DNA of 53,277 bases from an uncultured Rhodospirillales bacterium (GTDB lineage Bacteria > Pseudomonadota > Alphaproteobacteria > Acetobacterales > Acetobacteraceae), in NCBI GenBank assembly GCA_903865895.1, contig CAIPLM010000048.1, positions 1 through 53,277 of the forward strand, in the 5' to 3' direction. The position numbers and the translations under genes are program-made. Positions 15,338 to 29,289 of the stretch are shown here, piece by piece (the stretch's first letter is position 1; each line of letters opens with the position of its first letter). Below the pieces are notes generated by a model. It was not told the origin of the DNA. It saw nothing but the letters and a program-made list of their open reading frames with translations, and did not search any database.

Positions 15338-16489
15338 TCACGGCGCGCAGTTCGTCACCCCCATGTCGGCCAGCGCCTCGCGGATCGCCCCCAGCGCCCC
15401 GTTCATCTCGGCCGCGCCGAGCCGGCCGATGCAGCCGATGCGGAAGCTCTCGGCCACCGTCAGCTTGCCCGGGTAGATCACGTAGCCCGCCGCCGCCAGC
15501 CGGTCATAGAAAGCCGGGAAGTCGAATTTCGGGTCGGATGGCATGCGCACGGTGACGATGATCGGCGCCTGCAACGCGTCCGGCAGCAGGGTCTCGAAGC
15601 CCATCTCGCGCAGCCCCTTGACCAGGATATCGCAGTTCGCCCGGTAGCGCCCGCTGCGCCCGGCCACGCCGCCTTCATCCAGGAACTCGGTGATTGCCTG
15701 GTCAAGCGCGAGGATGCAGTGCACTGGCGGGGTGAAGCGCCACTGGCCGGTTTTCTCCATCGCCACCCACTGGTCATGCAGGTCGAGGCTCAGCGAGGGG
15801 GCGTTGCCCTGGCACTCCGCCAGCGCGGATGTGCGGGCGAGGCAGAAGCCCATGCCCGGCGCGCCTTCCAGGCATTTGTTGGAGGAGGCGACCACTGCGT
15901 CGAACATGATCTCCCGCGCGTCGACTTCGAGCGCCCCGAAGGCGCTCATCGAATCGATCAGCAGCCGCCGCTTGTGGCGTGCGACCACGGCGCCGATCGC
16001 GGCGATCGGGTTCAATACGCCCGAGGTGGTCTCGCAATGCACCACCGCGACATGGGTGATCGCGGGGTCGGCGGCGAGGCGCGCATCGAGCGCCGCGGGG
16101 TCACAGGGCACGTCTTCCGCGGTTTCCTGCGCCTCGGCGTCGCGGCCGTAATAGGCGCACATCTTGAGCATGCGCGTGCCATAGGCGCCGTTGACCAGCA
16201 CCAGCAGCTTGCCGCCTGGGGGTACGAAGGTGCCGATCATCGCCTCGACCACGAAGGTGCCGCTGCCCTGCAGTGGCACGCAGACGAAGTCATCGCCGCC
16301 ATGAATGATATCCACCAGCCGGGCGCGCATTTGGGCGTTGATGGCGATGAAGCGCTTGTCGCGCGAGCCGAGGTCATGAAGCATCGCCTGCTTCACCGTG
16401 GCCGAGGTGGTGAGCGGGCCGGGGGTGAGGAGGAACGGGTCGCCGGTTGGCGATAGCGCGCGGTTGGCGTGAGGCTGCGTGGTGTCCAT
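15338..16489 (-). CDS. phnW: 2-aminoethylphosphonate--pyruvate transaminase-like PLP enzyme (PhnW family)
   Basis: 383-residue fold-type I aminotransferase. PhnW hallmarks are visible: LLTPGPLTTSATVKQAMLHDLGSRD at the N-terminus, CVPLQGSGTFVVEAM, VNGAYGTRM, HCETTSGVLNPI, DSMSAFGALEVD, the PLP lysine in SSNKCLEGAPGMGF and SLSLDLHDQW. PhnW converts 2-aminoethylphosphonate and pyruvate to phosphonoacetaldehyde and alanine. The ATG at 16489 has GGAGAG five bases ahead, so the longer frame to 16573 is rejected. Divergent from a LysR gene, its probable regulator. No phosphonatase (PhnX), PhnA or PhnY is in the window, so it could act on a related amine; confidence is high for family, moderate for substrate. 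Confidence 0.85.
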   Translation of the reverse strand: MDTTQPHANRALSPTGDPFLLTPGPLTTSATVKQAMLHDLGSRDKRFIAINAQMRARLVDIIHGGDDFVCVPLQGSGTFVVEAMIGTFVPPGGKLLVLVNGAYGTRMLKMCAYYGRDAEAQETAEDVPCDPAALDARLAADPAITHVAVVHCETTSGVLNPIAAIGAVVARHKRRLLIDSMSAFGALEVDAREIMFDAVVASSNKCLEGAPGMGFCLARTSALAECQGNAPSLSLDLHDQWVAMEKTGQWRFTPPVHCILALDQAITEFLDEGGVAGRSGRYRANCDILVKGLREMGFETLLPDALQAPIIVTVRMPSDPKFDFPAFYDRLAAAGYVIYPGKLTVAESFRIGCIGRLGAAEMNGALGAIREALADMGVTNCAP

Positions 16490-16578: not shown

Positions 16579-17445
16579 GTGCCCATTAATCACGCCCAGC
16601 TCCGCGCCTTCCACGCCGTCGCCGCCGAGGGTGGCTTCACCCGTGCCGCCGCGGCCCTGCACGTCACCCAACCCACCCTCTCCGCCCAGGTGAAGGAGCT
16701 GGAGGCGACCTACGGCATTCGCCTGTTCGAGCGGGTGGGCAGGGGCGTCGAGGTCTCCGAACTCGGTCGCGCGCTGTTCGCCATCACCTCGCGCCTCGCC
16801 AGCCTCGAGAGCGAGGCCGAGCAACTATTGGCCTCCGCACGTGGCCTGCTGCGCGGCAATCTGCGGGTGATGGCCGATGCGCCGCACCATATCATCCCGC
16901 TGCTCAAACCCTTCGCCGCCCGCTACCCCGCCATCCGCTTCAGCCTGACCTTCGGCAACACCAGCGAGGCGATCGCCGCCATCCATGACCGCAGCTGCGA
17001 CGTGGCCGTGCTGCCAGACCTCGCGCCCGATCCGCGCATCCACCAGGTGCCCCTGCGGCGGGACCGGCTGGTGCTGAGCGTGGCACGTGGCCACCGCTGG
17101 GCGCGGCGCAAATCGGTCGGGCTCGCGGAGCTTGCCGGTGAGCGGATGGTGCTGCGCGAGCCGGGCTCCGCCACGCGGGCGCTGCTGGAATCCGCATGTG
17201 CCGCCGCCGGCATCGTGCTCGGCGAAACGCTCGATATCGGCAGCCGCGAGGCGGTGCGCGAGGCCGTGGCGGCCGAGCTCGGCGCCGGCGTGGTGCTGGC
17301 CAGCGAATTCGGCCACGACACCCGGCTGGTCCGCATCGCCCTCGGCGGCAAGCCGATCGAAAGCACCGAATTTGCCGCCTGCCTGCGCGACCGCCTCTCC
17401 GTCCGCGCGGTCGCCGCCTTTTTCGACCTGCTGCCCCCGGCTTGA
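16579..17445 (+). CDS. LysR-type transcriptional regulator
   Basis: 288 residues, normal LysR length, from a GTG at 16579 (VPINHAQLRAF). The N-terminal winged helix-turn-helix is textbook: FHAVAAEGGFTRAAAALHVTQPTLSAQVKELEATYGIRLFER. The rest is a periplasmic-binding-like effector domain beginning GNLRVMADAPHHIIPLLKPF. Divergent from the phnW-type gene with a palindromic spacer, so it most likely controls that gene in response to its substrate. An aminophosphonate effector would fit but is not demonstrable. A serine hydrolase gene follows in the same direction. Confidence 0.92.
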   Translation: MPINHAQLRAFHAVAAEGGFTRAAAALHVTQPTLSAQVKELEATYGIRLFERVGRGVEVSELGRALFAITSRLASLESEAEQLLASARGLLRGNLRVMADAPHHIIPLLKPFAARYPAIRFSLTFGNTSEAIAAIHDRSCDVAVLPDLAPDPRIHQVPLRRDRLVLSVARGHRWARRKSVGLAELAGERMVLREPGSATRALLESACAAAGIVLGETLDIGSREAVREAVAAELGAGVVLASEFGHDTRLVRIALGGKPIESTEFAACLRDRLSVRAVAAFFDLLPPA

Positions 17446-19111: not shown

Positions 19112-20113
19112 TCAGCCCCCGGCGGCGAGCATGAGGGCGTAGTCGATGGCTTCGAGCATGGAGTCGGCGTTGGCGATGCCGCGGCCGGCGATATCGAAGG
19201 CGGTGCCGTGGTCGACGGAGGTGCGGATGACGGGGAGGCCGAGGGTGATGTTGACGCCGGAGAGGGCTTCGAAGGTGCCGGTATCAGGGTTGATGTTGAA
19301 GCCGAGAAGTTTGACCGGGATGTGGCCTTGGTCATGGTACATGGCGATCACGGCGTCGTAGTGTCCGGCGCGGAGTTTGACGAAGACGGTATCGCCGGGG
19401 ATCGGGCCGGAGACGCGGAGCCCGTCGGCGTTGCAGCGGGCGATGGCGGGGGTGGTGATGTCGATGTCTTCGCGTCCGAACAACCCGCCTTCGCCGGCGT
19501 GGGGGTTGAGGGCGGCCACCGCGATGTGCGGGCGGGCGATGCCGAGGCGAAGCAGGGCGGCCTGCGTGAGATCAATGGTGCGGCGCAGCCGGGCTTCGGT
19601 GAGCAGCGCCGGGACTTTCTCGAGCGCGACATGGGTGGTGACGTGGCTGACCCGCATATTGCCGTGGGCGAGCATCATGACGGAGGATTTGGTGCCGGTG
19701 AGTGACGCCAGCATGTCGGTATGCCCGGCGAAATGGTGGCCGGCGAGGTTGAGCGCCTCCTTGTTGAGTGGCGCGGTGACGATGGCTTGGATGGCGCCGG
19801 ATTGTGCGAGCTGCACCGCGCGTTCCACGGCAAGATAGGCAAAGCGGCCAGCTTCGGCGCTGACCTGACCGAGTGGGATGGGCGCCCGTTCCTCGCCAGC
19901 GGCGATGAGGCTGAGGGGGCCTGTGTCATCCTCGGGGATCGGCGGTATGCCGAGCAGGGCCTCGGCGGCGCGCAGCGCGGAGCGGTGGCCGATGATGCGC
20001 AGGCGGAGTTCCCCGGCGGCGAGGCGCGGGGCGAGACGTGCGGCGGCCTTGGCGATAATTTCGGCGGAGATCCCGGCGGGGTCGCCCATGGTGACGGCGA
20101 GGCATGGTGGCAT
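19112..20113 (-). CDS. pdxA: PdxA-family 4-phospho-hydroxyacid dehydrogenase (PdxA2-type)
   Basis: 333 residues. PdxA family marks: MGDPAGISAEIIAKAA at the start, metal-binding histidines in GHHFAGHTDMLA, LNPHAGEGGLFG and YHDQGHIPVKLLGF, and the NAD-binding C-terminus. True PdxA oxidises and decarboxylates 4-phosphohydroxy-L-threonine in vitamin B6 synthesis. Next to a DUF1537 kinase, the paralogue (PdxA2) is known to oxidise D-threonate or D-erythronate 4-phosphate to dihydroxyacetone phosphate plus CO2. Here it follows a DUF1537 kinase gene by 15 bases, so the catabolic role is much more likely than B6 synthesis. Last gene of a five-gene minus-strand operon. Confidence 0.9.
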   Translation of the reverse strand: MPPCLAVTMGDPAGISAEIIAKAAARLAPRLAAGELRLRIIGHRSALRAAEALLGIPPIPEDDTGPLSLIAAGEERAPIPLGQVSAEAGRFAYLAVERAVQLAQSGAIQAIVTAPLNKEALNLAGHHFAGHTDMLASLTGTKSSVMMLAHGNMRVSHVTTHVALEKVPALLTEARLRRTIDLTQAALLRLGIARPHIAVAALNPHAGEGGLFGREDIDITTPAIARCNADGLRVSGPIPGDTVFVKLRAGHYDAVIAMYHDQGHIPVKLLGFNINPDTGTFEALSGVNITLGLPVIRTSVDHGTAFDIAGRGIANADSMLEAIDYALMLAAGG

Positions 20114-20128: not shown

Positions 20129-21163
20129 TCAGGCGAGCAGGCGGGCGAGAAAGTCGGGCCGGCCAAAGGCGCCGGATTTCGATACCACCATGGCGCCGTC
20201 CCAGATGCCACCCTCCATGGAGGAGATCGGCACCCCGGGCTGAAGTTCCCCGATGACGGTGAGGTGGCTGGTGCCAAGCGCGTCGCACAGGCGGCGGAGG
20301 GTTTCGCCGCCGGTGACCGCGAGCGTGCCGGGCGTTGGGATGGAAAAGGCGAGCGCGCTGAAGGTGGCGGCGATGGCGGTGGCGGCGGCCTCGCGGGAGG
20401 CGCCTTCCGGCACCTCGGCGGTGACGGCGACGGAGCGGCGGGCGATCATGCGGGCCATGGCGCGGGCGCCTTCGGGGCCGAGCAGGGTGTAAGTATCGCG
20501 GCATTCGGCGAATTGCGCGCGGCTGGCCGGGTGGTCGGAGCCGACGACGGCCAGGATTGGCGGGCGCAGCGCGGGGCAGGGCACCGGCCGCCGCTCGGCG
20601 AGTGCGGCGGCCAGCCCGCCGGTGCCGCACCACAGGATGGGGCCGTTGAGGTTGCGGCCCCCTTCGACGATGGCGTCGAGATCACCCTCGTCCACCGCGT
20701 CCCACAGGCTGATGCCGGGGGAGGGGGCGTCACCGGGGCGGCAATGGCTCAGCAGCACGCCGTGGCGGGCGAAATCGAGCGAGAGATCGACGCCGACATC
20801 CGCCCCATGCGCGTATTGCCGCCCGCCGCTGGTGATGCGGCCCTGGAAGGGAAAGGCCGGGGCGATGATCGCGTGGGCGAAGCGGCCGAGGCGCATGCAG
20901 GCGACAATCTCGCTGGCGACGTGGCCGCGCAACAGGCTGTCGATCTTCTTGAACGCGAGGTCGGCGCCCCGCACATAGGGCGCCCAGCGCTCCATGGCGG
21001 GCGCCGGGTCCGCGGCATCGCGGCTTTCGCTGGAATAGGCCGCCGCCGCGGTTTCGGTGGAACGCCGCCAGGAGACCGGGATCGGCCCGAAGCGCGGCAC
21101 GAAGCGGGCGGCGCTGTCGAGCGCGCCGGTGAGGTCGTCCGCCAGGAGGCGGAAGGCGGTCAT
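20129..21163 (-). CDS. Four-carbon acid-sugar kinase (DUF1537 family)
   Basis: 344 residues, somewhat short for the family (about 400-430). N-terminal domain LLADDLTGALDSAARF is the DUF1537 signature; the C-terminal ATP-binding domain shows VTGGETLRRLCDALG and ends GAMVVSKSGAFGRPDFLARLL, the K-SG-FG motif of the family. These kinases phosphorylate the terminal hydroxyl of acid sugars such as D-threonate, D-erythronate or 2-oxo-tetronate. The start at 21163 overlaps the upstream stop as ATGA and lies 15 bases before pdxA. The pair kinase plus PdxA2 predicts conversion of a C4 acid to a triose phosphate. Exact stereochemistry cannot be told. Confidence 0.9.
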   Translation of the reverse strand: MTAFRLLADDLTGALDSAARFVPRFGPIPVSWRRSTETAAAAYSSESRDAADPAPAMERWAPYVRGADLAFKKIDSLLRGHVASEIVACMRLGRFAHAIIAPAFPFQGRITSGGRQYAHGADVGVDLSLDFARHGVLLSHCRPGDAPSPGISLWDAVDEGDLDAIVEGGRNLNGPILWCGTGGLAAALAERRPVPCPALRPPILAVVGSDHPASRAQFAECRDTYTLLGPEGARAMARMIARRSVAVTAEVPEGASREAAATAIAATFSALAFSIPTPGTLAVTGGETLRRLCDALGTSHLTVIGELQPGVPISSMEGGIWDGAMVVSKSGAFGRPDFLARLLA

Positions 21164-22092
21164 GCCACCCGGTTCAGCAGGGGTTCCCCCGCGGCGAGGC
21201 GGCGGCAATTCTCGGCGGCCGTGGCGAAGCTGCGATCGAAGGTGCCGGTGGTGACCCAGGCGACATGCGGCGCGACGACGACGTTGTCGAGCGCGAAGAG
21301 CGGGTCGGCGGGGTCGGCCGGTTCGTGCACGAAGACATCGAGCCCGGCGGCGGCGAGGTGGCCGGCGGCGAGCGCGGCGGTGAGGGCGGCCTGGTCGACG
21401 AGGCCGCCGCGGGCGGTGTTGACGAGGATGGCGCCCGGTTTCATCCGCGCGATGGCGGCGGCGTCGATGCAGCGATCGGTCTCGGGGGTGAGGGGGATGT
21501 GGAGCGAGACGATGTCGGACCGGGCCAGCAGCGTGTCACGGTCCGCATAGGTCGCGAGCGCACCGGGCTTCGGCGAGCGGGCGGTGTAGAGCACCTTGCA
21601 GCCCATGGCCGTGAGGATGGGCGCGAGATGCTGCGGGATGGCGCCATAGCCGATCAGTCCGACGGTGCGGCCATGCAGTTCACCGAGCGAATCCTGGATC
21701 AGCGGCGGCGTCGCCCAATGGCCGGCACGCAGCCTGGCGTCGAACATCGGCAGGCGGCGCAGGGTTGCGAGCATCAGCAGCAGCGCCATCTCGGCCACCG
21801 CCGGCGCGTTGCTGCCGGGTAGGTTGCAGACGGCGATGCCGCGGGCGCGGGCGGCGTCGAGATCGATGGTGTTGACGCCGATGCCGATCTTCTGGATCAG
21901 CCGCAGCTTCGGCGCGCCCGCGATCACTTCAGCCGTGCAGGGTTTCAACGCGTGCCACAGCACCTCGGCATCACGCATTTCGTGCATGAAGGCGTCATCG
22001 TCCGGCTCGGGGCAGAAGGCGATGTCGAGGCCGGGGAAGGCGAGGTGGGATTTGAGGCCGGGGCCTGCGTCGTAGTGCAGGACAACCTTCAT
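21160..22092 (-). CDS. D-2-hydroxyacid dehydrogenase
   Basis: 310 residues. NAD(P)-dependent reductase/oxidase of 2-oxo/2-hydroxy acids (glyoxylate/hydroxypyruvate reductase group). Catalytic Arg in VNTARGGLVDQ, Glu in DVFVHEPADP and His in VVAPHVAW are present. The nucleotide-binding loop reads GLIGYGAIPQHL, so the third glycine of GxGxxG is proline. Coupled by ATGA overlaps both to the enolase-like gene upstream (22089-22092) and the kinase downstream (21160-21163). In the operon it would interconvert a hydroxy acid and a keto acid before or after phosphorylation; substrate unknown. Confidence 0.88.
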   Translation of the reverse strand: MKVVLHYDAGPGLKSHLAFPGLDIAFCPEPDDDAFMHEMRDAEVLWHALKPCTAEVIAGAPKLRLIQKIGIGVNTIDLDAARARGIAVCNLPGSNAPAVAEMALLLMLATLRRLPMFDARLRAGHWATPPLIQDSLGELHGRTVGLIGYGAIPQHLAPILTAMGCKVLYTARSPKPGALATYADRDTLLARSDIVSLHIPLTPETDRCIDAAAIARMKPGAILVNTARGGLVDQAALTAALAAGHLAAAGLDVFVHEPADPADPLFALDNVVVAPHVAWVTTGTFDRSFATAAENCRRLAAGEPLLNRVA

Positions 22093-23378
22093 CGCTTGGA
22101 GCGTCCGAAGCAGGAATCGCCGGCAAAACGGGCGGTGTGGCCCATCGCCTCCTCGATGCGGATCGCCTCGTTCCACTTCGCCATGCGCTCGGAGCGCGCG
22201 AAACTGCCGACCTTGAGCTGCCCGACGCCCCAGCCGATGGCGAGATGCACGATGGTGACGTCCTCGGTCTCGCCGGAGCGGGCGGACACGATGCCGGCAT
22301 AGCCGACCTCTTTCGCCGCCTCCCAGGCCGCCAGCGTCTCGGTCAGCGTGCCCCGCTGATTGGGCTTGATGAGCACGGTATTGGCCGCACCCTGCTTGGC
22401 CGCGGCGTGGATGCGGGCGGCCTCGGTGACCAGGAAATCATCGCCGACCACCTGGATGCGATCGCCCACCGCGGCGGTGAACGCGGCAAACCCGGCGGCG
22501 TCATCCTCGGCCAGCGGGTCCTCAATGGAGATGATGGGGTAGCGGCCGATCCAGCCGGTCAGCATGTCGATCATGCCCTGGCTGTCGAGCTTCTTGCCTT
22601 CGAGGCCGAGGGTATAGACGCCGTCGCGGCCGAACTCGGAGGCGGCGATATCGAGCGCGATCGCCACCTGCTCGCCCGGGCGGAACCCGGCGCGCTCGAT
22701 CGCGCGCACCAGCATTTCCAGCGCCTGCTCATTGGCGGTGAAGGCCGGCCACCAGCCGCCCTCATCGGCGACGCCCTGGAGGGTTCCCGCCTCCTTCATC
22801 AGAATGCCGGCATGGCGGTAGACCTCGGCCGTCCAGTCCAGCGCCTGGGCGAAGCTGTTGGCGGCGGGGCAGACGATCAGGAAATCCTGGATATCGACGC
22901 GCCGCCCGGCATGGGCGCCGCCGCCGAAGATCTGGATTTGCGGCAGCGGCAGCAGGTTGGCGCCATCGCCGCCGAGATGGCGGTAGAGCGGCTTGCCGGC
23001 CGCCGCGGCGGCGGCATGGGCGGTGGCCATGGAGACGGCGAGGATGGCGTTGCCGCCAAGCTTGGTCTTGGCCGGCGTGCCGTCGAGCGCGATCATGATG
23101 CCGTCGATATCGGCCTGGTTGGCACCATCGCGCCCGATCACCGCATCGGCGATGGGGTCAACCACGTTCTCGACCGCCTTGGTGACGTCATAACCGCCGA
23201 AGGCCGTGCCGCCGTCCCGCAGATCCAGCGCCTCGCCGGAGCCGGTGGAGGCGCCGGCCGGGGCAATGGCACGGCCGACGGCGCCGCCGGCCAGCATCAC
23301 CTCGGCCTCCACGGTCGGGCGGCCGCGGCTGTCCCACACCCGGCGGCCATGGACATAGACGATCTCGGTTTCGCTCAT
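22089..23378 (-). CDS. Divergent enolase paralogue (phosphopyruvate-hydratase family)
   Basis: 429 residues, full enolase length. Kept: GASTGSGEALDLRDG loop, metal ligands in IALDIAASEFG, IISIEDPLAEDD and VVGDDFLVT, the GGGAHAG histidine, the Glu of VADEGGW, the base Lys in LIKPNQRGTLTET, and the late Lys in LKVGS. Changed: the catalytic Glu of VDIQEF is Asp (VDIQDF, yeast E168) and the active-site His of the SHRSGETED loop is Ala (SARSGETED, yeast H373). A housekeeping enolase would not tolerate these, so this is probably a specialised dehydratase acting on another phosphorylated acid. It is coupled by ATGA overlaps to a kinase upstream and a dehydrogenase downstream. Substrate is unknown. 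Confidence 0.88.
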   Translation of the reverse strand: MSETEIVYVHGRRVWDSRGRPTVEAEVMLAGGAVGRAIAPAGASTGSGEALDLRDGGTAFGGYDVTKAVENVVDPIADAVIGRDGANQADIDGIMIALDGTPAKTKLGGNAILAVSMATAHAAAAAAGKPLYRHLGGDGANLLPLPQIQIFGGGAHAGRRVDIQDFLIVCPAANSFAQALDWTAEVYRHAGILMKEAGTLQGVADEGGWWPAFTANEQALEMLVRAIERAGFRPGEQVAIALDIAASEFGRDGVYTLGLEGKKLDSQGMIDMLTGWIGRYPIISIEDPLAEDDAAGFAAFTAAVGDRIQVVGDDFLVTEAARIHAAAKQGAANTVLIKPNQRGTLTETLAAWEAAKEVGYAGIVSARSGETEDVTIVHLAIGWGVGQLKVGSFARSERMAKWNEAIRIEEAMGHTARFAGDSCFGRSKR

Positions 23379-24379
23379 CGGGCGAGTTCCTCTCTCCAGG
23401 CCGCGGCAATGGCGGCGAGGCGGTCGACGGGGGAGGCCAGCAGCGCCCGCGCCGCACTGCGGACATGGGCACGCTGGTTGTCGGTGGTGATGTATTCGGC
23501 TGGCGACTTGCCGTCGACCCTCGCCAGCAGCAATCCGGGCAGGAGATGGGCGACGCGGGCCTCGATGGCGTTGCGGTGCTCCCAGGTGACGCCGGCGAGA
23601 TAGGCCTCCGTCATGGCAGCGAAGCAGGCGAGGAAGGCGGGGGTGGCGGCCGGCGTCCACAGGCATTTCAGCAGAAGATGATTGAGGCAGAAGGCGAGAT
23701 CGAAGGCCGGATCGCCCCACCAGGCGCATTCGGCGTCGAGGAAGACGGGGCCATCGAGACCGATGAGGATGTTCTTCGGGCTGACATCGCCATGCACCAA
23801 GGCGCGCTTGTTGGCTTGGGTGGTGGCGATCAAAGCCTCGAGCACCGCGGCGCGATCGGGGTGGGCACGGGCCGTGGCGGCGAGATAGGGCTCGAGGCGG
23901 ATATCGAAGAAAATCGCATCGGTGGGGAAATCGGTGGCGACGGTGGGATCGGCGGCGGTGGCGGCGTGAATACGCACCAGCGTGGCGCCGACGGCGGCGG
24001 CGAAAGCAGGGTCCGCACGGCCGTCGCGCAATTCGCTCTTCCACAGGAGATATCGCTCGGGCGGCAGGAATGCCATGGCGAGCGCCCCAGCCTCCTCGTC
24101 CTGCCCCAGCAGCTGCGGCACGCAGCCGGGCGCGGCGGCGGCGGCGCGTTGCATCCAGCGTGCCTCGTAGCGGTTGCGCGACACCGGCGCCCGCCAATCC
24201 GCGGCGACGCGCAGTTTCCCCAATGCCCGCTTCACACAGATGGGGCCTGAAGCGGTCTCGATGCGCCAGATATCGGAGGAGACGCCGCCGGTCAGCGGCG
24301 CGCCGGTGATCGACGCATCGGCGATTCCCATGCGGCGCAGGGCGGCGATGATCTCGGGAGGTGGCAATATCGCGGTCAT
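23375..24379 (-). CDS. APH-family small-molecule kinase
   Basis: 334 residues, first gene of the five-gene operon. Phosphotransferase (APH/choline-kinase fold): N-lobe PLTGGVSSDIWRIETASGPICVKRAL with the ATP lysine, catalytic loop LVHGDVSPKNILIG, and metal-binding FLDAECAWWGDPAFDLAF. This is the same subfamily style as methylthioribose/homoserine-type kinases rather than resistance enzymes. The ATG at 24379 has AGGA at good distance, and its stop overlaps the enolase-like start (ATGA). Inferred to phosphorylate the substrate that the enolase-like protein then dehydrates; no resistance role is suggested by context. Confidence 0.85.
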   Translation of the reverse strand: MTAILPPPEIIAALRRMGIADASITGAPLTGGVSSDIWRIETASGPICVKRALGKLRVAADWRAPVSRNRYEARWMQRAAAAAPGCVPQLLGQDEEAGALAMAFLPPERYLLWKSELRDGRADPAFAAAVGATLVRIHAATAADPTVATDFPTDAIFFDIRLEPYLAATARAHPDRAAVLEALIATTQANKRALVHGDVSPKNILIGLDGPVFLDAECAWWGDPAFDLAFCLNHLLLKCLWTPAATPAFLACFAAMTEAYLAGVTWEHRNAIEARVAHLLPGLLLARVDGKSPAEYITTDNQRAHVRSAARALLASPVDRLAAIAAAWREELAR

Positions 24380-24446: not shown

Positions 24447-25601
24447 ATGATCTACGATGAGCTCGGCGTCAAACCGCTGATCAACGCGGCCGGCACGGTG
24501 ACGCGCCTCTCCGGCGGCATCATGGCGCCAGAGGTGGCGGAGGCGATGCGACAGGCCTCGCTCGCCTGCGTCGACATGGTGCAGATGCAGGCCGCCGCCT
24601 GCCGGGCTATCCGCGCCGCGACGGGGGCGGAGGCCGGCATTGTCACCTCCGGCGCCTCGGCCGCCGTCCTGCTCGGCGCCGGCGCCTGCCTCGCCGGGCT
24701 CGATCCCGGCAGGATGAACCGCCTGCCCGAGGTCGCCGACGGGCGGCGGGAGTTCATCGTCGTGCGCAGCCAGCGCAACATGTACGACCGCGCCATCGTC
24801 GTGGCGGGCGGCAAGCTGGTCGAGGTCGGCATCCCCGACCGCTACTCCGGCCCCGGCGTGCGCGATGCCGCTGCCTGGGAGATCGAGGAGGCGATCGGGC
24901 CGAACACCGCCGGCATCTATTATTTGGCGCAGACCCAGTCCAAACCCACCCTGCGTGAGGTCGCGTCGGTGGCACGGCGGCACGGGCTGCCGGTGCTGGT
25001 GGATGCCGCGGCGCAACTGCCGCCCGCGAGCAACCTGCGCGACTATCTGGAAGAGGGGGCGGACCTGGTCTGCTTCAGCGGCGGCAAGGCGCTGGGCGGG
25101 CCGCAATCGTCGGGCATCCTCGCCGGGCGCGCCGATTTGGTCGGCTCGGCGCTGTTGCAGATGCTGGACCTCGACGTCGACGTCGAGACCTGGGCGCCGC
25201 CGCGCGAGTTCGCCATGCTCGGCCAGCTGCGCGGCCTGCCGCATCACGGCATCGGGCGCTCCTGCAAGGTGGGCAAGGAGGAGATCGCCGGGCTGATCAC
25301 GGCGCTCAACCGCTTCGTCGCCGAACTGCCCGCGGCACGCCATGCCAGGCTGCTCGGCCGCGCCACGCGGATGCTGGGGGCGGGCGGGGAGGGGCTGTCG
25401 CTCACGTCAGGTCCGGTGCCAATGCTGGCCTGGAAAGTCGGCGAGGGCGTGCGGGCCATGGCGGCGAAGCTGCTCGCCGGTGTGCCGTCCATCGCTTGCG
25501 GCATGGGCCGTGCCGATGAGGGCGTGCTGCTGTTCAACCCGATGGCGATCACCGACGTTCAGGCAGACGCCATCGCCCGCGCCATTGCGGCATTGCGATA
25601 A
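24447..25601 (+). CDS. SelA/DgaE-like PLP-dependent enzyme
   Basis: 384 residues, fold-type I, related to L-seryl-tRNA(Sec) selenium transferase and D-glucosaminate-6-phosphate ammonia-lyase (DgaE). Typical marks: ELGVKPLINAAGTVTRLSGGIM at the start, EAGIVTSGASAAVLLGAGACL, VDAAAQLPP, and the PLP lysine in CFSGGKALGGPQSSG near residue 214. There is a GGGGGAG ribosome site ahead of the ATG. No selenocysteine system is nearby, so a catabolic ammonia-lyase or racemase-like reaction on an amino or aminosugar acid is more likely. Divergent from the enolase-like operon; first of a plus-strand run of catabolic genes. Confidence 0.85.
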   Translation: MIYDELGVKPLINAAGTVTRLSGGIMAPEVAEAMRQASLACVDMVQMQAAACRAIRAATGAEAGIVTSGASAAVLLGAGACLAGLDPGRMNRLPEVADGRREFIVVRSQRNMYDRAIVVAGGKLVEVGIPDRYSGPGVRDAAAWEIEEAIGPNTAGIYYLAQTQSKPTLREVASVARRHGLPVLVDAAAQLPPASNLRDYLEEGADLVCFSGGKALGGPQSSGILAGRADLVGSALLQMLDLDVDVETWAPPREFAMLGQLRGLPHHGIGRSCKVGKEEIAGLITALNRFVAELPAARHARLLGRATRMLGAGGEGLSLTSGPVPMLAWKVGEGVRAMAAKLLAGVPSIACGMGRADEGVLLFNPMAITDVQADAIARAIAALR

Positions 25602-25694: not shown

Positions 25695-25743
25695 CGAACC
25701 TGCTTCCTTGCTGAAGAACACGGATTTTAAGCGGAGAAACACA

Positions 25744-27030
25744 ATGAACCTCGACGCCATTGCCGCCAGCCCGCTCGATGATCGCAGCAAGGGCGTTCCC
25801 GGTGGCACCGCGCCGTTCCGCCTCGATGCGATCGCCGCCAAAGGCTGGAACGTGCTGCGCGAGGACCTCAACATGCCTGTCGCGGTGCTGAAGGAGAGCG
25901 CGCTCACCCATAACAGCGCCTGGATGCGCAATTTTCTCACCCGCGCCCACGCGGTGATTGCGCCGCACGGCAAGACGACGATGGCGCCGCAGTTGTTCCA
26001 GCGCCAGCTCGATGACGGCGCCTGGGCCATCACGCTCGCGACCCCTCAGCAAGTGCAGGTGGCCCGCGCGCATGGCGTGCAGCGCATCGTGCTGGCCAAC
26101 CAGCTGATCGGCCGCCACGCGATCGACTGGGTGCTAAGCGAGTTGAAGCGCGATCCTGGCTTCGATTTTTACTGCCTGGTCGATTCCGAAGTGGGCGTGC
26201 GCATGCTCGCCGATGCCGCCCGGGCCGCCGATATCGGCCGGCCGATCCAGGTGTTCCTGGAAGGCGGCGCGCTCGGCGGCCGCACCGGAGTGCGCGATCG
26301 CGCGAAGGGTCTCGCGGTGGCCCGCGCGGTGAAGGCGGCCTCGCCTTTTCTCGCGCTGCGCGGCGTTGAAGGCTTCGAGGGATTGTTCGGCGGCACCCGC
26401 GAGGAGATCGAGGGCAAAGTGCGGGACTTCCTCGAACTCCTCGTGACGCTCGCAAAGGACTGCGAGGCCGAGGGTCTGTTCGGGCCGGGCGAGGTGATCC
26501 TAACTGCCGGCGGCTCGGCCTATTATGACATGGTGATGGCTCGGTTCCGTCACGCCGGGCTCGCATCGCCGGTGAAGATTGTCATCCGCAGCGGCTGCTA
26601 CCTCAGCCATGATTCCGGCCGCTACCGGCGTGGCTTCACCGAGATCGTCGAGCGCACACCTGATGCTGCGCAGGGCGGCGGATTGGTCTCGGCCATCGAG
26701 GTCTGGGCCTACGTGCAATCCCGCCCCGAGCCCGGCAAGGTGTTGCTGACCATGGGCGCGCGGGACACCCAGTCCGACGTGATGCCGCTGCCCGAGACCT
26801 GGTTTCGCGCGGGGATGAACGCACCGGCCCGGGTGCCGCCCGGCCATGTCTGCACCGGGATGAACGACCAGCACACCCACATGACAATTCCGCATGACTC
26901 GCCGTTCGCGGTGGGCGATCTCGTCTCCTTCGGCGTTTCGCACCCCTGCCTCACGTTCGACAAGTGGAACGTGCTCTACGTCGTCGATGATGCCTACAAT
27001 GTGGTGTCCGCCGTGCGGACGTTCTTCTGA
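25744..27030 (+). CDS. DSD1-like PLP enzyme (D-serine/D-threonine dehydratase or aldolase family)
   Basis: 428 residues. Fold-type III (alanine-racemase-like) barrel with the PLP lysine in IAPHGKTTMAPQ near residue 77, and the C-terminal D-serine-dehydratase-like domain carrying the metal pair H-x-C in SHPC near residues 400-402. This family cleaves or deaminates D-hydroxy amino acids using PLP and a divalent metal. The start ATG at 25744 follows GGAG; a longer frame from 25708 is less likely. It precedes the M81 gene by 5 bases. Substrate could be D-serine, D-threonine or a 3-hydroxy-D-amino acid. Confidence 0.87.
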   Translation: MNLDAIAASPLDDRSKGVPGGTAPFRLDAIAAKGWNVLREDLNMPVAVLKESALTHNSAWMRNFLTRAHAVIAPHGKTTMAPQLFQRQLDDGAWAITLATPQQVQVARAHGVQRIVLANQLIGRHAIDWVLSELKRDPGFDFYCLVDSEVGVRMLADAARAADIGRPIQVFLEGGALGGRTGVRDRAKGLAVARAVKAASPFLALRGVEGFEGLFGGTREEIEGKVRDFLELLVTLAKDCEAEGLFGPGEVILTAGGSAYYDMVMARFRHAGLASPVKIVIRSGCYLSHDSGRYRRGFTEIVERTPDAAQGGGLVSAIEVWAYVQSRPEPGKVLLTMGARDTQSDVMPLPETWFRAGMNAPARVPPGHVCTGMNDQHTHMTIPHDSPFAVGDLVSFGVSHPCLTFDKWNVLYVVDDAYNVVSAVRTFF

Positions 27031-27035
27031 GAGAC

Positions 27036-28511
27036 ATGACCATGCGCATTTTCGCCTGCACACTGGCCACCGAGACCAACACCTTCTCCCCGCTGCCGAC
27101 CGCGATGGACGGCTATCGCGACACCGTGTTCCTGCGCCCCGGCGAGCACCCGGAGGAGACGCCGCTGATGTGCACCGCGCCGCTCTGGGTGGCGCGGCGG
27201 CGCGCGGCGGCGGAGGGGTTCACGCTGATCGAAGGCAGCTGCTTCGCCGCCTCGCCGGCCGGCTACACCAACCGCGCGGACTACGAGACGATGCGCGACG
27301 AAATCCTCGCCCAGGTGAAGGCCGCCATGCCGCTCGATGGCGTGCTGCTCGGCCTGCATGGCGCCATGGTGGCGCATGGCTATGACGACGTGGAGGGCGA
27401 CATCGCCGAGCGGGTGCGCGCCATCGTCGGGCCGGATTGCGTGATCGGCATGGAGCTCGATCCGCACTGCCACCTCACGCTGAAGCGCGTCAGCCTGTGC
27501 GACATCATCATCCTCTACAAGGAATTCCCCCATACCGACGTGGTGGACCGCGCCGAGGAACTCCTCACCCACGTGCTCGCCACCATCCGCAAGCAGATCA
27601 AGCCTGTCATGTCGATGTACGACTGCCGGCAGATCGGCTCCTACCCCACCACGCTGCCGCTGATGCGCGCCTTCGTGGACCGCATGATCGGCCTGGAGGG
27701 CAAGGACGGCATTCTCTCGATCTCCATTGGCCATTGCTTCCCCTATGCCGACGTGGCTGAACTCGGCGGGCGCATCCTCGTCGTCACCGACGGCGACAAG
27801 GCGCAGGCGGACCGGCTGGCCACCGCGATCGGCGAGGAATTCGTCTCCATGCGCGGCAAGACGGCGCCCGACTACTACGAGGTGGCCGATGGCGTGAGCA
27901 CCGCAATCGCCGCCAACGTCTCCCCGGTGGTGATGGCCGATCCCGCGGATAACGCAGGAGGCGGCGCGCCGTCGGACAACACGACCATCTTGCGTGACCT
28001 CATCGCCCGCGATGCCCAGGGCGCCGCGCTCGGCCCGATCTGGGACCCGATTGCCGTGCGCCTGTGCTTCGATGCCGGCATCGGTGCCACCTTCCCACTG
28101 CGCTTCGGCGGTAAGATCGGCCCGGCCTCCGGCGCCCCGGTGGACGCCATGGTGACGGTGACCGGATTGGCGCGGGACTGTTCGCAGTCCTTCGGCCCGA
28201 CCCAATCGCCGCTCGGCGATTGCGCGGCGATCAAGATCGGTGGCGTCGAGGTGGTGCTGATCACCAACCGCACCCAGGCGCTGGGGCTCGAGCTGTTCCG
28301 CAATGTCGGCATCGAGCCGACCGAGCGGAAAATGCTGGTGGTGAAATCCACCAACCATTTCATGGCCGCCTTCGGGCCGATCGCCAAGAAGGTGATCTAT
28401 ATCGACGCTGACGGGCCGATCCCCCGCGACTACCGCAAAATCCCCTACACCAAGATCAACCGCCCGATCTGGCCGCTCGATGCCGAGACCAGCCCCGGCC
28501 TTATTTTCTGA
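27036..28511 (+). CDS. M81-family metallopeptidase (MlrC / microcystinase C-like)
   Basis: 491 residues. Whole-length resemblance to MlrC: start RIFACTLATETNTFSP, LHGAMVAHGYDDVEGD, the metal-site style motifs ELDPHCH and EFPHTDVVDRAEE, then the C-terminal domain ending in VKSTNHFMAAFGPIAKKVIYIDADGP. MlrC completes degradation of the cyclic peptide microcystin in sphingomonads, but most M81 genes occur in amino-acid or small-amide catabolic clusters and their substrates are unknown. Here the gene lies between the DSD1-like enzyme (5-base gap) and the aldolase (10-base gap), so a small N-substituted or D-amino-acid compound is a better guess than microcystin. Confidence 0.9.
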   Translation: MTMRIFACTLATETNTFSPLPTAMDGYRDTVFLRPGEHPEETPLMCTAPLWVARRRAAAEGFTLIEGSCFAASPAGYTNRADYETMRDEILAQVKAAMPLDGVLLGLHGAMVAHGYDDVEGDIAERVRAIVGPDCVIGMELDPHCHLTLKRVSLCDIIILYKEFPHTDVVDRAEELLTHVLATIRKQIKPVMSMYDCRQIGSYPTTLPLMRAFVDRMIGLEGKDGILSISIGHCFPYADVAELGGRILVVTDGDKAQADRLATAIGEEFVSMRGKTAPDYYEVADGVSTAIAANVSPVVMADPADNAGGGAPSDNTTILRDLIARDAQGAALGPIWDPIAVRLCFDAGIGATFPLRFGGKIGPASGAPVDAMVTVTGLARDCSQSFGPTQSPLGDCAAIKIGGVEVVLITNRTQALGLELFRNVGIEPTERKMLVVKSTNHFMAAFGPIAKKVIYIDADGPIPRDYRKIPYTKINRPIWPLDAETSPGLIF

Positions 28512-28521
28512 GGACGCCGCC

Positions 28522-29289
28522 ATGATCGACAACCCCGTCCGCCGCAAACTCCTCGCCGGCGGCAGTGCCCTCGGCGTGATGGCCTTCGAATTCTTCACCC
28601 CCGGCCTCGCCCGCGTGCTGAAGGCCGGCGGTGCGGAGTTCGTCATCCTCGATACCGAACACAGCGGCGCGGGGATGGACACGCTGAAGGCCGCCATCGC
28701 CTTCGCCCGCGGCGCCGGCATCGTGCCGATGGTGCGCGTGCCGGGCCTCGCGCGGCATTTGGTCTCCCCAGTGCTCGATGCCGGGGCGATGGGGATCATG
28801 GTGCCGATGCTGGAAACCGCGGATCAGGCGCGCGAACTCGTCTCCTACTGCCGCTACCGGCCGGAGGGTACGCGCGGCCTCGCTTTCGGCATGGCGCATG
28901 ACGATTACGAGGGCGGCCCGGTCGGTCCGGCGATCCGCGCCGCCAATGCGGCGGTGATGACCATCGCGCTGATCGAGACGGCGGCGGGGCTGGCCAATGC
29001 GCGGGAGATCATGGCCGTGCCCGGGCTCGATCTCGGCTGGGTCGGCCATTTCGATCTCACGGACAGCCTGGGTTTCACCGGCCAGATGGACGACCCGCGC
29101 TACGCCGCGGCCGAGGCGGCGTTGCTCGCGGCGGCCAAGGCGGAAGGCAAGCCGTTTGGCTGGCTCGCGGGCGATGGCGCCCAGGCCAAGGCGGCGCTGG
29201 AGCGCGGCTTCCGCTGCCTTTGCATCAACACCGATATCGGCCTGCTGCGCGGCGCCATGCTGCGTGAATTCGCTGCCGCCAAGGCCTGA
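28522..29289 (+). CDS. HpcH/HpaI-family class II 2-oxo-acid aldolase
   Basis: 255 residues. Metal-dependent aldolase for 2-keto-3-deoxy or 4-hydroxy-2-oxo acids, giving pyruvate plus an aldehyde. The active-site set is visible: His in VILDTEHSG, Arg in PMVRVPG, metal Glu in ALIETAAGL and Asp in WVGHFDLTDSLG. The start at 28522 follows GAGGA; the longer upstream frame lies inside the M81 gene. Part of the plus-strand catabolic run between M81 and a hydroxyacid dehydrogenase (12-base gap), suggesting release of a pyruvate/aldehyde pair from the pathway substrate. Confidence 0.9.
   Translation: MIDNPVRRKLLAGGSALGVMAFEFFTPGLARVLKAGGAEFVILDTEHSGAGMDTLKAAIAFARGAGIVPMVRVPGLARHLVSPVLDAGAMGIMVPMLETADQARELVSYCRYRPEGTRGLAFGMAHDDYEGGPVGPAIRAANAAVMTIALIETAAGLANAREIMAVPGLDLGWVGHFDLTDSLGFTGQMDDPRYAAAEAALLAAAKAEGKPFGWLAGDGAQAKAALERGFRCLCINTDIGLLRGAMLREFAAAKA

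Follow-up and report, generated by a model that had tools for sequence, protein, structure and literature searches.

An enolase paralogue with two catalytic residues replaced, linked to an APH-type kinase, in an uncultured Rhodospirillales bacterium

Enolase (EC 4.2.1.11, TIGR01060) is a textbook example of a conserved housekeeping enzyme. Its chemistry needs a carboxylate held on two metal ions, a proton and a phosphate at C2, and a leaving group at C3, and the histidine of its SHRSGETED motif is important in ordinary enolases. Enolase also belongs to serine-cycle style sets, which combine hydroxypyruvate reductase, glycerate 2-kinase, enolase, and PEP carboxylase. Another reaction is carried out by an enolase homologue of phosphinothricin biosynthesis, carboxyphosphonoenolpyruvate synthase. 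Here we describe an enolase with an altered catalytic centre and compare it, its relatives, and their gene neighbourhoods with these systems.

The window, a 53,277-nt stretch of DNA from an uncultured Rhodospirillales bacterium of the family Acetobacteraceae (contig CAIPLM010000048.1), contains an enolase gene whose product we call Eno* (Table 1). The reading frame is intact and its product has the length of an enolase. Eno* has the enolase fold and scored above the cut-off of TIGR01060, while it reached 23 bits with MR_MLE_C (cut-off 29.4) and had no match to MR_MLE_N. A sequence-only reading of this DNA had claimed that the catalytic Glu of VDIQE is changed to Asp and the His of SHRSGETED to Ala, with the rest of the catalytic frame intact. 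Alignment with ordinary enolases confirmed both substitutions, at Asp165 and Ala366, as well as the retention of the metal ligands, the base Lys338, Glu206 of the DEGG motif, and the phosphate loop. The metal ligands, base Lys, DEGG Glu, and phosphate-binding Arg and Ser were invariant among 38 variants and one canonical enolase. Eno* keeps all residues serving the metal-bound carboxylate, the C2 proton, and the C2 phosphate, and the two changed positions, judging from structural knowledge, presumably sit around the C3 hydroxyl. In Mycobacterium tuberculosis enolase, replacing the VDIQE Glu, equivalent to position 165, with Ala made the enzyme non-functional, which indicates that this position matters for the normal reaction (PMC10619443). 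The AlphaFold model of Eno* was weakest at the active-site loops (pLDDT < 50 at residues 43–45, 48–63, and 155–159), so the argument about the active-site cavity made below rests on sequence.

Table 1 Features of the window, with positions counted from its first nucleotide
Feature	Position	Strand	Model match or motifs
PhnW, 2-aminoethylphosphonate--pyruvate transaminase	15338-16489	-	469.3 bits, cut-off 400.8
PdxA family	19112..20113	-	TIGR00557 349.6 bits, cut-off 290.35
Short DUF1537-type acid-sugar kinase	20129..21163	-	PF07005 positions 4-130 of 230; PF17042 positions 61-168 of 168
D-isomer 2-hydroxyacid dehydrogenase (PGDH/glyoxylate-reductase-like)	21160..22092	-	PF02826 188.6 bits; PF00389 90.8 bits
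D/A enolase (Eno*), 429 aa	22089..23378	-	Asp165, Ala366, ADEGGWW, GGGAHAGRRVD, KPNQRG
APH-type small-molecule kinase	23375..24379	-	PF01636 74.8 bits, cut-off 23.2; HGDxxxxN and LDAE
DgaE/SelA-like PLP ammonia lyase, divergent, accessory	24447..25601 (start inferred from beginning of model match)	+	TIGR01437 144.9 bits, below cut-off 385.3
PLP enzyme, D-threonine/3-hydroxyaspartate aldolase type, accessory	25708..27030	+	NF045642 39 bits, below cut-off
M81/MlrC-family metallopeptidase-like gene	27036-28511	+	414 bits, cut-off 999
HpaI/GarL-type 2-keto-3-deoxy-acid aldolase, accessory	28522..29289	+	NF007849 115 bits, below cut-off 393

A second, canonical enolase was looked for in the host genome and was present: one further copy, of the SHRSGETED type, lies at C284:12832-14100 and shares 47% identity with Eno*. 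Eno* was thus not classed as the glycolytic copy of the cell, since the canonical enolase occurs in the same genome. Glu and His were found in all 18 canonical enolases compared, in agreement with the claim that a housekeeping enolase keeps both, and the Asp and Ala substitutions were absent from these 18 sequences. Within the host family, 142 of 150 genomes had an enolase match, and 31 of the 150 contained a close relative of Eno* (best E < 1e-160). All of these 31 genomes had at least two enolase matches; the matches listed included some, not all, of the second copies. The canonical His-type motif was identified in 57 of 60 host-family genomes that were at least 90% complete. The three without it were G010 and G019, both with no enolase match, and G026, with a weak one (1.2e-83). 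Eno* is a second enolase with a rebuilt catalytic centre, distinct from the glycolytic enzyme.

Relatives of Eno* were searched with a 76-residue segment, and 80 of at least 516 relatives were kept. Because the segment contained the Asp and not the Ala, the Ala provided an independent test of the signature. The variant set comprised 115 entries, of which 104 were distinct and 11 were genes fetched twice; four distinct variants end at a contig edge before the second motif, and L108, without a start codon, was dropped. Asp occupied the VDIQE Glu position in 104 of 104 distinct variants, and Ala occupied the SHRSGETED His position in all 100 that reach the motif, so the search for other members with the pair found it fixed. 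Fourteen sites were fixed differently between the D/A enolases and the 18 canonical enolases, G204, N149, and N152 among them. In the phylogenetic tree, the 122 D/A enolases grouped with one degenerate copy in a single clade of 123 leaves with a support of 1.0, and none of the 18 canonical enolases fell inside it.

The deepest D/A members, L138 (the same gene as in L153) and L156, showed ~51% identity to Eno* and have the Asp, the Ala, and in addition an Ala preceding DEGG. We had considered whether the Arg pair of loop 2 (GRRVD) signals a second carboxylate in the substrate and dropped it as a core feature, since L153 (RS) and L156 (GA) lack it, yet are D/A enolases linked to a kinase, and since Gly replaced the first Arg in 3 of 36 variants. 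These deep branches (L153, 10840-13091; L156, 8951-11193), still kinase-adjacent, may encode enzymes that use other substrates. The degenerate copy, L120 (1991-3271, minus strand), has Ser for the DEGG Glu and ATRSGETED for SHRSGETED. Its genome has four enolase matches. In the tree it groups with the D/A enolases, and from its sequence it is possibly a pseudoenzyme.

The kinase gene of the window overlaps the enolase start by 4 nt. Its product is of the APH family, with PF01636 above the cut-off and HGDxxxxN followed by D-x-E, and both motifs were present in 89 of 90 kinase homologues of at least 250 aa (L070 was the exception; two short homologues were excluded). Neighbours were counted in 72 of 94 mapped loci, namely those flanked by 1.2 kb or more on each side, excluding L120 and L143. 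Counting was by tblastn with chosen seeds and bit-score cut-offs, and absences are therefore soft. The home-made gene calling applied to unannotated loci misses some genes, including the window kinase, which was added as a seed. An APH-type kinase was found within 9 kb of the D/A enolase in 70 of the 72 loci, and in 54 it was the gene immediately upstream, in the same orientation; by tblastn, none was found within 9 kb at L110 and L115. We also scanned 398 genomes of the host phylum with the neighbour-blind pattern A-R-S-G-E-[ST]-E-D, which matched in eight genomes, a lower bound since AGR arginine codons are missed. One match, reading A-R-T-G-E-R-E-D, was set aside and another was the window enolase. 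The remaining six were all D/A enolases, each with a kinase within ~5 kb. Pairwise distances of the enolases correlated with those of the kinases (r = 0.905, 85 loci) and of the dehydrogenases (r = 0.776, 56 loci), with 0 of 1000 permutations as high in either case; shared genome descent accounts for part of these correlations. The counts and the distances make the link to the kinase stronger than the sequence-only reading could tell, and a small-molecule kinase of its own accompanies the D/A enolase at almost every locus.

Kinase, enolase, D-2-hydroxyacid dehydrogenase, short DUF1537 kinase, and PdxA genes form a five-gene run in the window. Adjacent genes overlap by 4 nt at each of the first three junctions, one of them between the dehydrogenase and the enolase stop. 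The sequence-only reading had named a hydroxyacid dehydrogenase as the downstream partner, which was correct for the window but did not hold throughout the clade. A 2-hydroxyacid dehydrogenase or CtBP-like protein was encoded within 9 kb in 44 of the 72 loci, and a ketopantoate-reductase-like protein (PF02558/PF08546) in 12 others. Either family was present in 56/72 and both together in 0/72, while in 16/72 tblastn recovered neither type within 9 kb. The occurrence of two 2-keto-acid reductase families in one place suggests that the kinase acts on a 2-hydroxy acid derived from a 2-keto acid.

The DUF1537 protein of the window leaves the middle of the usual two-domain model unmatched, and a fuller match was found elsewhere in the genome (C189). 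It scored 96.8 bits with the D-threonate kinase model NF047819, below the cut-off of 450. The PdxA-family product is probably PdxA2-like, an acid-sugar 4-phosphate oxidative decarboxylase, and scored 298.4 bits with the D-threonate 4-phosphate dehydrogenase model NF002891, below the cut-off of 583; a second PdxA is encoded elsewhere in the host genome. The M81/MlrC-like gene adjoins the genes for the PLP enzymes and the aldolase and was seen in a few relatives too. The phnW gene lies four genes away, behind a LysR gene and a beta-lactamase-fold gene. The LysR regulator beside it (16579-17445) is divergent, and no phosphonatase was recognised among the scanned neighbours of PhnW.

Neighbourhoods differed between lineages. 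DUF1537 (8 of 87 mapped entries) and PdxA (7 of 87) belong to the Acetobacteraceae setting. In L046, a co-directional run consists of genes for DgaE/SelA-like, PLP aldolase-like, and M81 proteins, HpaI aldolase, kinase, enolase, dehydrogenase, DUF1537, and PdxA; the HpaI aldolase immediately precedes the kinase there. Paracoccus and Roseibium have an array of LacI, kinase, enolase, FAH hydrolase, SDR, and sugar ABC transporter genes, and the FAH protein matched the 2,4-didehydro-3-deoxy-rhamnonate-hydrolase model with 352 bits, below its cut-off. Rhizobium, Paraburkholderia, Bradyrhizobium, and Streptomyces showed cupin, enolase, VOC dioxygenase-like, CMD, ADH, and FAH genes, and CtBP and kinase genes lay nearby. 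A genuine PEP carboxylase (1113.7 bits, cut-off 815) occurred in rhizobial loci only (5 of 87 mapped entries, plus L142 and L157). In Burkholderiales the order was ketopantoate-reductase-like, kinase, enolase. Transport genes were of varied kinds (TRAP, tripartite tricarboxylate, sugar ABC, and branched-chain ABC), and a D-galactonate-type transporter model was matched near L156 with 107 bits, below cut-off. Among the genes of the D/A enolase clusters, neither a pyruvate kinase nor a phosphatase could be recognised; the host genome had one pyruvate kinase and three IlvD/EDD matches.

An Azospirillum locus, L139 (5953-15278), contains genes for a PEP-mutase-family protein, Fe-ADH, a TRAP binding protein, a PhyH dioxygenase, GntR, the kinase, and a D/A enolase. 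All its phosphonate-flavoured model matches were below cut-off. A phosphonate role, considered from L139 and the window PhnW, was kept only within one of the alternatives below, as it came from a single locus with scores below cut-off. In L154, an MR/MLE-type protein, possibly an ordinary sugar-acid dehydratase, is encoded a few genes from the enolase, and because of it we dropped the claim that the marine-type clusters contain no other dehydratase.

Eno* probably dehydrates a phosphorylated acid other than the glycolytic one. The reading that we prefer, with a probability of about 50%, is that the kinase and Eno* make up a dehydration module that spends ATP, passes through the 2-phosphate, and serves 2,3-dihydroxy (sugar) acids with a longer chain than glycerate. 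We infer its substrate, phosphorylation site, product, order of steps, and side group R as follows. A 2-keto-acid reductase, either the 2-hydroxyacid dehydrogenase or the ketopantoate-reductase-like protein, would supply the 2,3-dihydroxy acid from R-CHOH-CO-COOH, and in other clusters a sugar dehydrogenase would do so. The APH-type kinase would then use ATP to form the 2-phosphate, R-CHOH-CH(OP)-COOH. In Eno*, Lys338 would remove the C2 proton with the assistance of Mg, and Glu206 would assist the loss of the C3 hydroxyl. The product would be R-CH=C(OP)-COOH, the enol phosphate of a 2-keto-3-deoxy acid and a homologue of PEP. Depending on the cluster, the keto acid would be cut by the HpaI-type aldolase, or oxidised and cut by the FAH-type hydrolase; HpaI-type aldolases and FAH-type diketo-acid hydrolases act on 2-keto-3-deoxy-type acids. 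With Asp for Glu and Ala for His, two side chains near the C3 hydroxyl are shorter, which would make room for a C3 substituent, and the joint fixation of both changes over the clade suggests that the substrate is bulkier at C3. Given the DUF1537/PdxA pair, our first guess for the window is a C4 acid (tetronate), with R = CH2OH.

The dehydration module is favoured by the sugar-acid genes around the enolases (DUF1537, PdxA, FAH, the sugar ABC transporter, and the D-galactonate-type transporter match) and by a catalytic frame that is kept while second-shell residues are changed and fixed. The single clade, the kinase linkage with its intact kinase motifs, the two reductase families that never co-occur, and the published effect of the Glu replacement also favour it. 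Several observations speak against it. The extradiol-dioxygenase-like VOC, cupin, and CMD genes of Rhizobium, Paraburkholderia, and Streptomyces would be superfluous for a plain sugar-acid route, and the rhizobial PEP carboxylase would fit PEP itself as the product. The MR/MLE protein near L154 and the three IlvD/EDD matches of the host genome would make a second dehydration route redundant. By tblastn, neither reductase was recovered in 16/72 loci and no kinase in 2/72, and the lack of a recognised pyruvate kinase or phosphatase in the clusters also counts against the module. Moreover, Glu to Asp is a milder change than the published Glu to Ala (PMC10619443).

An alternative that we regard as unlikely is that the module provides a parallel way of converting hydroxypyruvate to PEP. 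D-glycerate would come from the dehydrogenase and 2-phosphoglycerate from the APH kinase, and Eno* would still dehydrate 2-phosphoglycerate, though with different kinetics or regulation. The order reductase, kinase, enolase equals that of hydroxypyruvate assimilation in the serine cycle, PEP carboxylase lies beside the enolase in Rhizobium, and the models that gave the window dehydrogenase its highest scores were those for phosphoglycerate dehydrogenase and glyoxylate reductase. However, the same genomes already have a canonical enolase, PEP carboxylase is restricted to the rhizobial loci, and an unchanged substrate gives no obvious reason why two positions of the catalytic centre, together with G204, N149, and N152, should be fixed differently.

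Somewhat less likely still, Eno* might convert a 3-substituted 2-phospholactate to PEP itself, with a leaving group larger than hydroxide (an amine, sulfonate, ether, or similar). The shortened side chains are those surrounding the leaving group, and both the PEP carboxylase of the rhizobial loci and the PEP-mutase-family, PhyH dioxygenase, and Fe-ADH genes before the kinase and enolase in Azospirillum would suit such a reaction, but the Azospirillum set is one locus with scores below cut-off, no sulfite, amine, or phosphonate genes recur, and Glu206, the acid that assists hydroxide loss, is retained. That Eno* is catalytically dead and serves the kinase as a regulator or scaffold is very improbable, since all first-shell residues are invariant and purifying selection is strong, even though both replaced residues matter in ordinary enolases (the Glu according to PMC10619443) and a clearly degenerate copy exists in L120, which, unlike Eno*, has Ser for Glu206.

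The enolase fold and family are already known, and the kinase-linked D/A branch is a new variant. We call it new because none of the NCBIfam and Pfam models scanned with the window separates it from other enolases, because annotated plasmid copies are labelled eno, phosphopyruvate hydratase, and because the wordings searched in the open-access literature returned no description of a kinase-linked or D/A enolase. A monophyletic D/A branch tied to a kinase would mean that the glycolytic enolase itself, and not only distant relatives in its superfamily, has been recruited to new chemistry. Since at least some D/A genes are publicly annotated as eno, phosphopyruvate hydratase, metabolic models may be mistaken in treating them as glycolytic. 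Extending the dehydration module, we suggest tentatively, and with somewhat more doubt than belief, that bacteria own a 'phosphorylative' route of sugar-acid dehydration. In this route an APH-family 2-kinase and a re-tooled enolase would mimic late glycolysis on longer acids, and yield PEP homologues whose high-energy enol phosphate can return the ATP. The kinase-enolase pair would be a portable cassette, masked by the name eno, that has reached Streptomyces as well as Acetobacteraceae, Burkholderiales, Rhizobiales, and Rhodobacterales.

Among known systems, the MR/MLE and IlvD/EDD dehydratases achieve the net reaction proposed for Eno*, from a 2,3-dihydroxy acid to a 2-keto-3-deoxy acid, whereas Eno* is a true enolase and would proceed via a 2-phosphate at the cost of ATP. 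The DUF1537 kinase and PdxA2 of the D-threonate route have counterparts of both gene types following Eno* in the window, but their low counts among the mapped entries place them outside the Eno* core. Carboxyphosphonoenolpyruvate synthase resembles Eno* by description only, as an enolase-family protein with a different reaction. The serine-cycle set shares with the Eno* clusters the order of reductase, kinase, and enolase, and in rhizobial loci also PEP carboxylase, but in the Eno* clusters the kinase is of the APH family and the active site of the enolase is changed. Glycolytic enolase shares with Eno* the fold, length, metal ligands, base Lys, DEGG Glu, and phosphate loop, and Eno* differs from it by the Asp, the Ala, and 14 fixed differences in all, by its linkage to a kinase, and by its occurrence beside a canonical copy.
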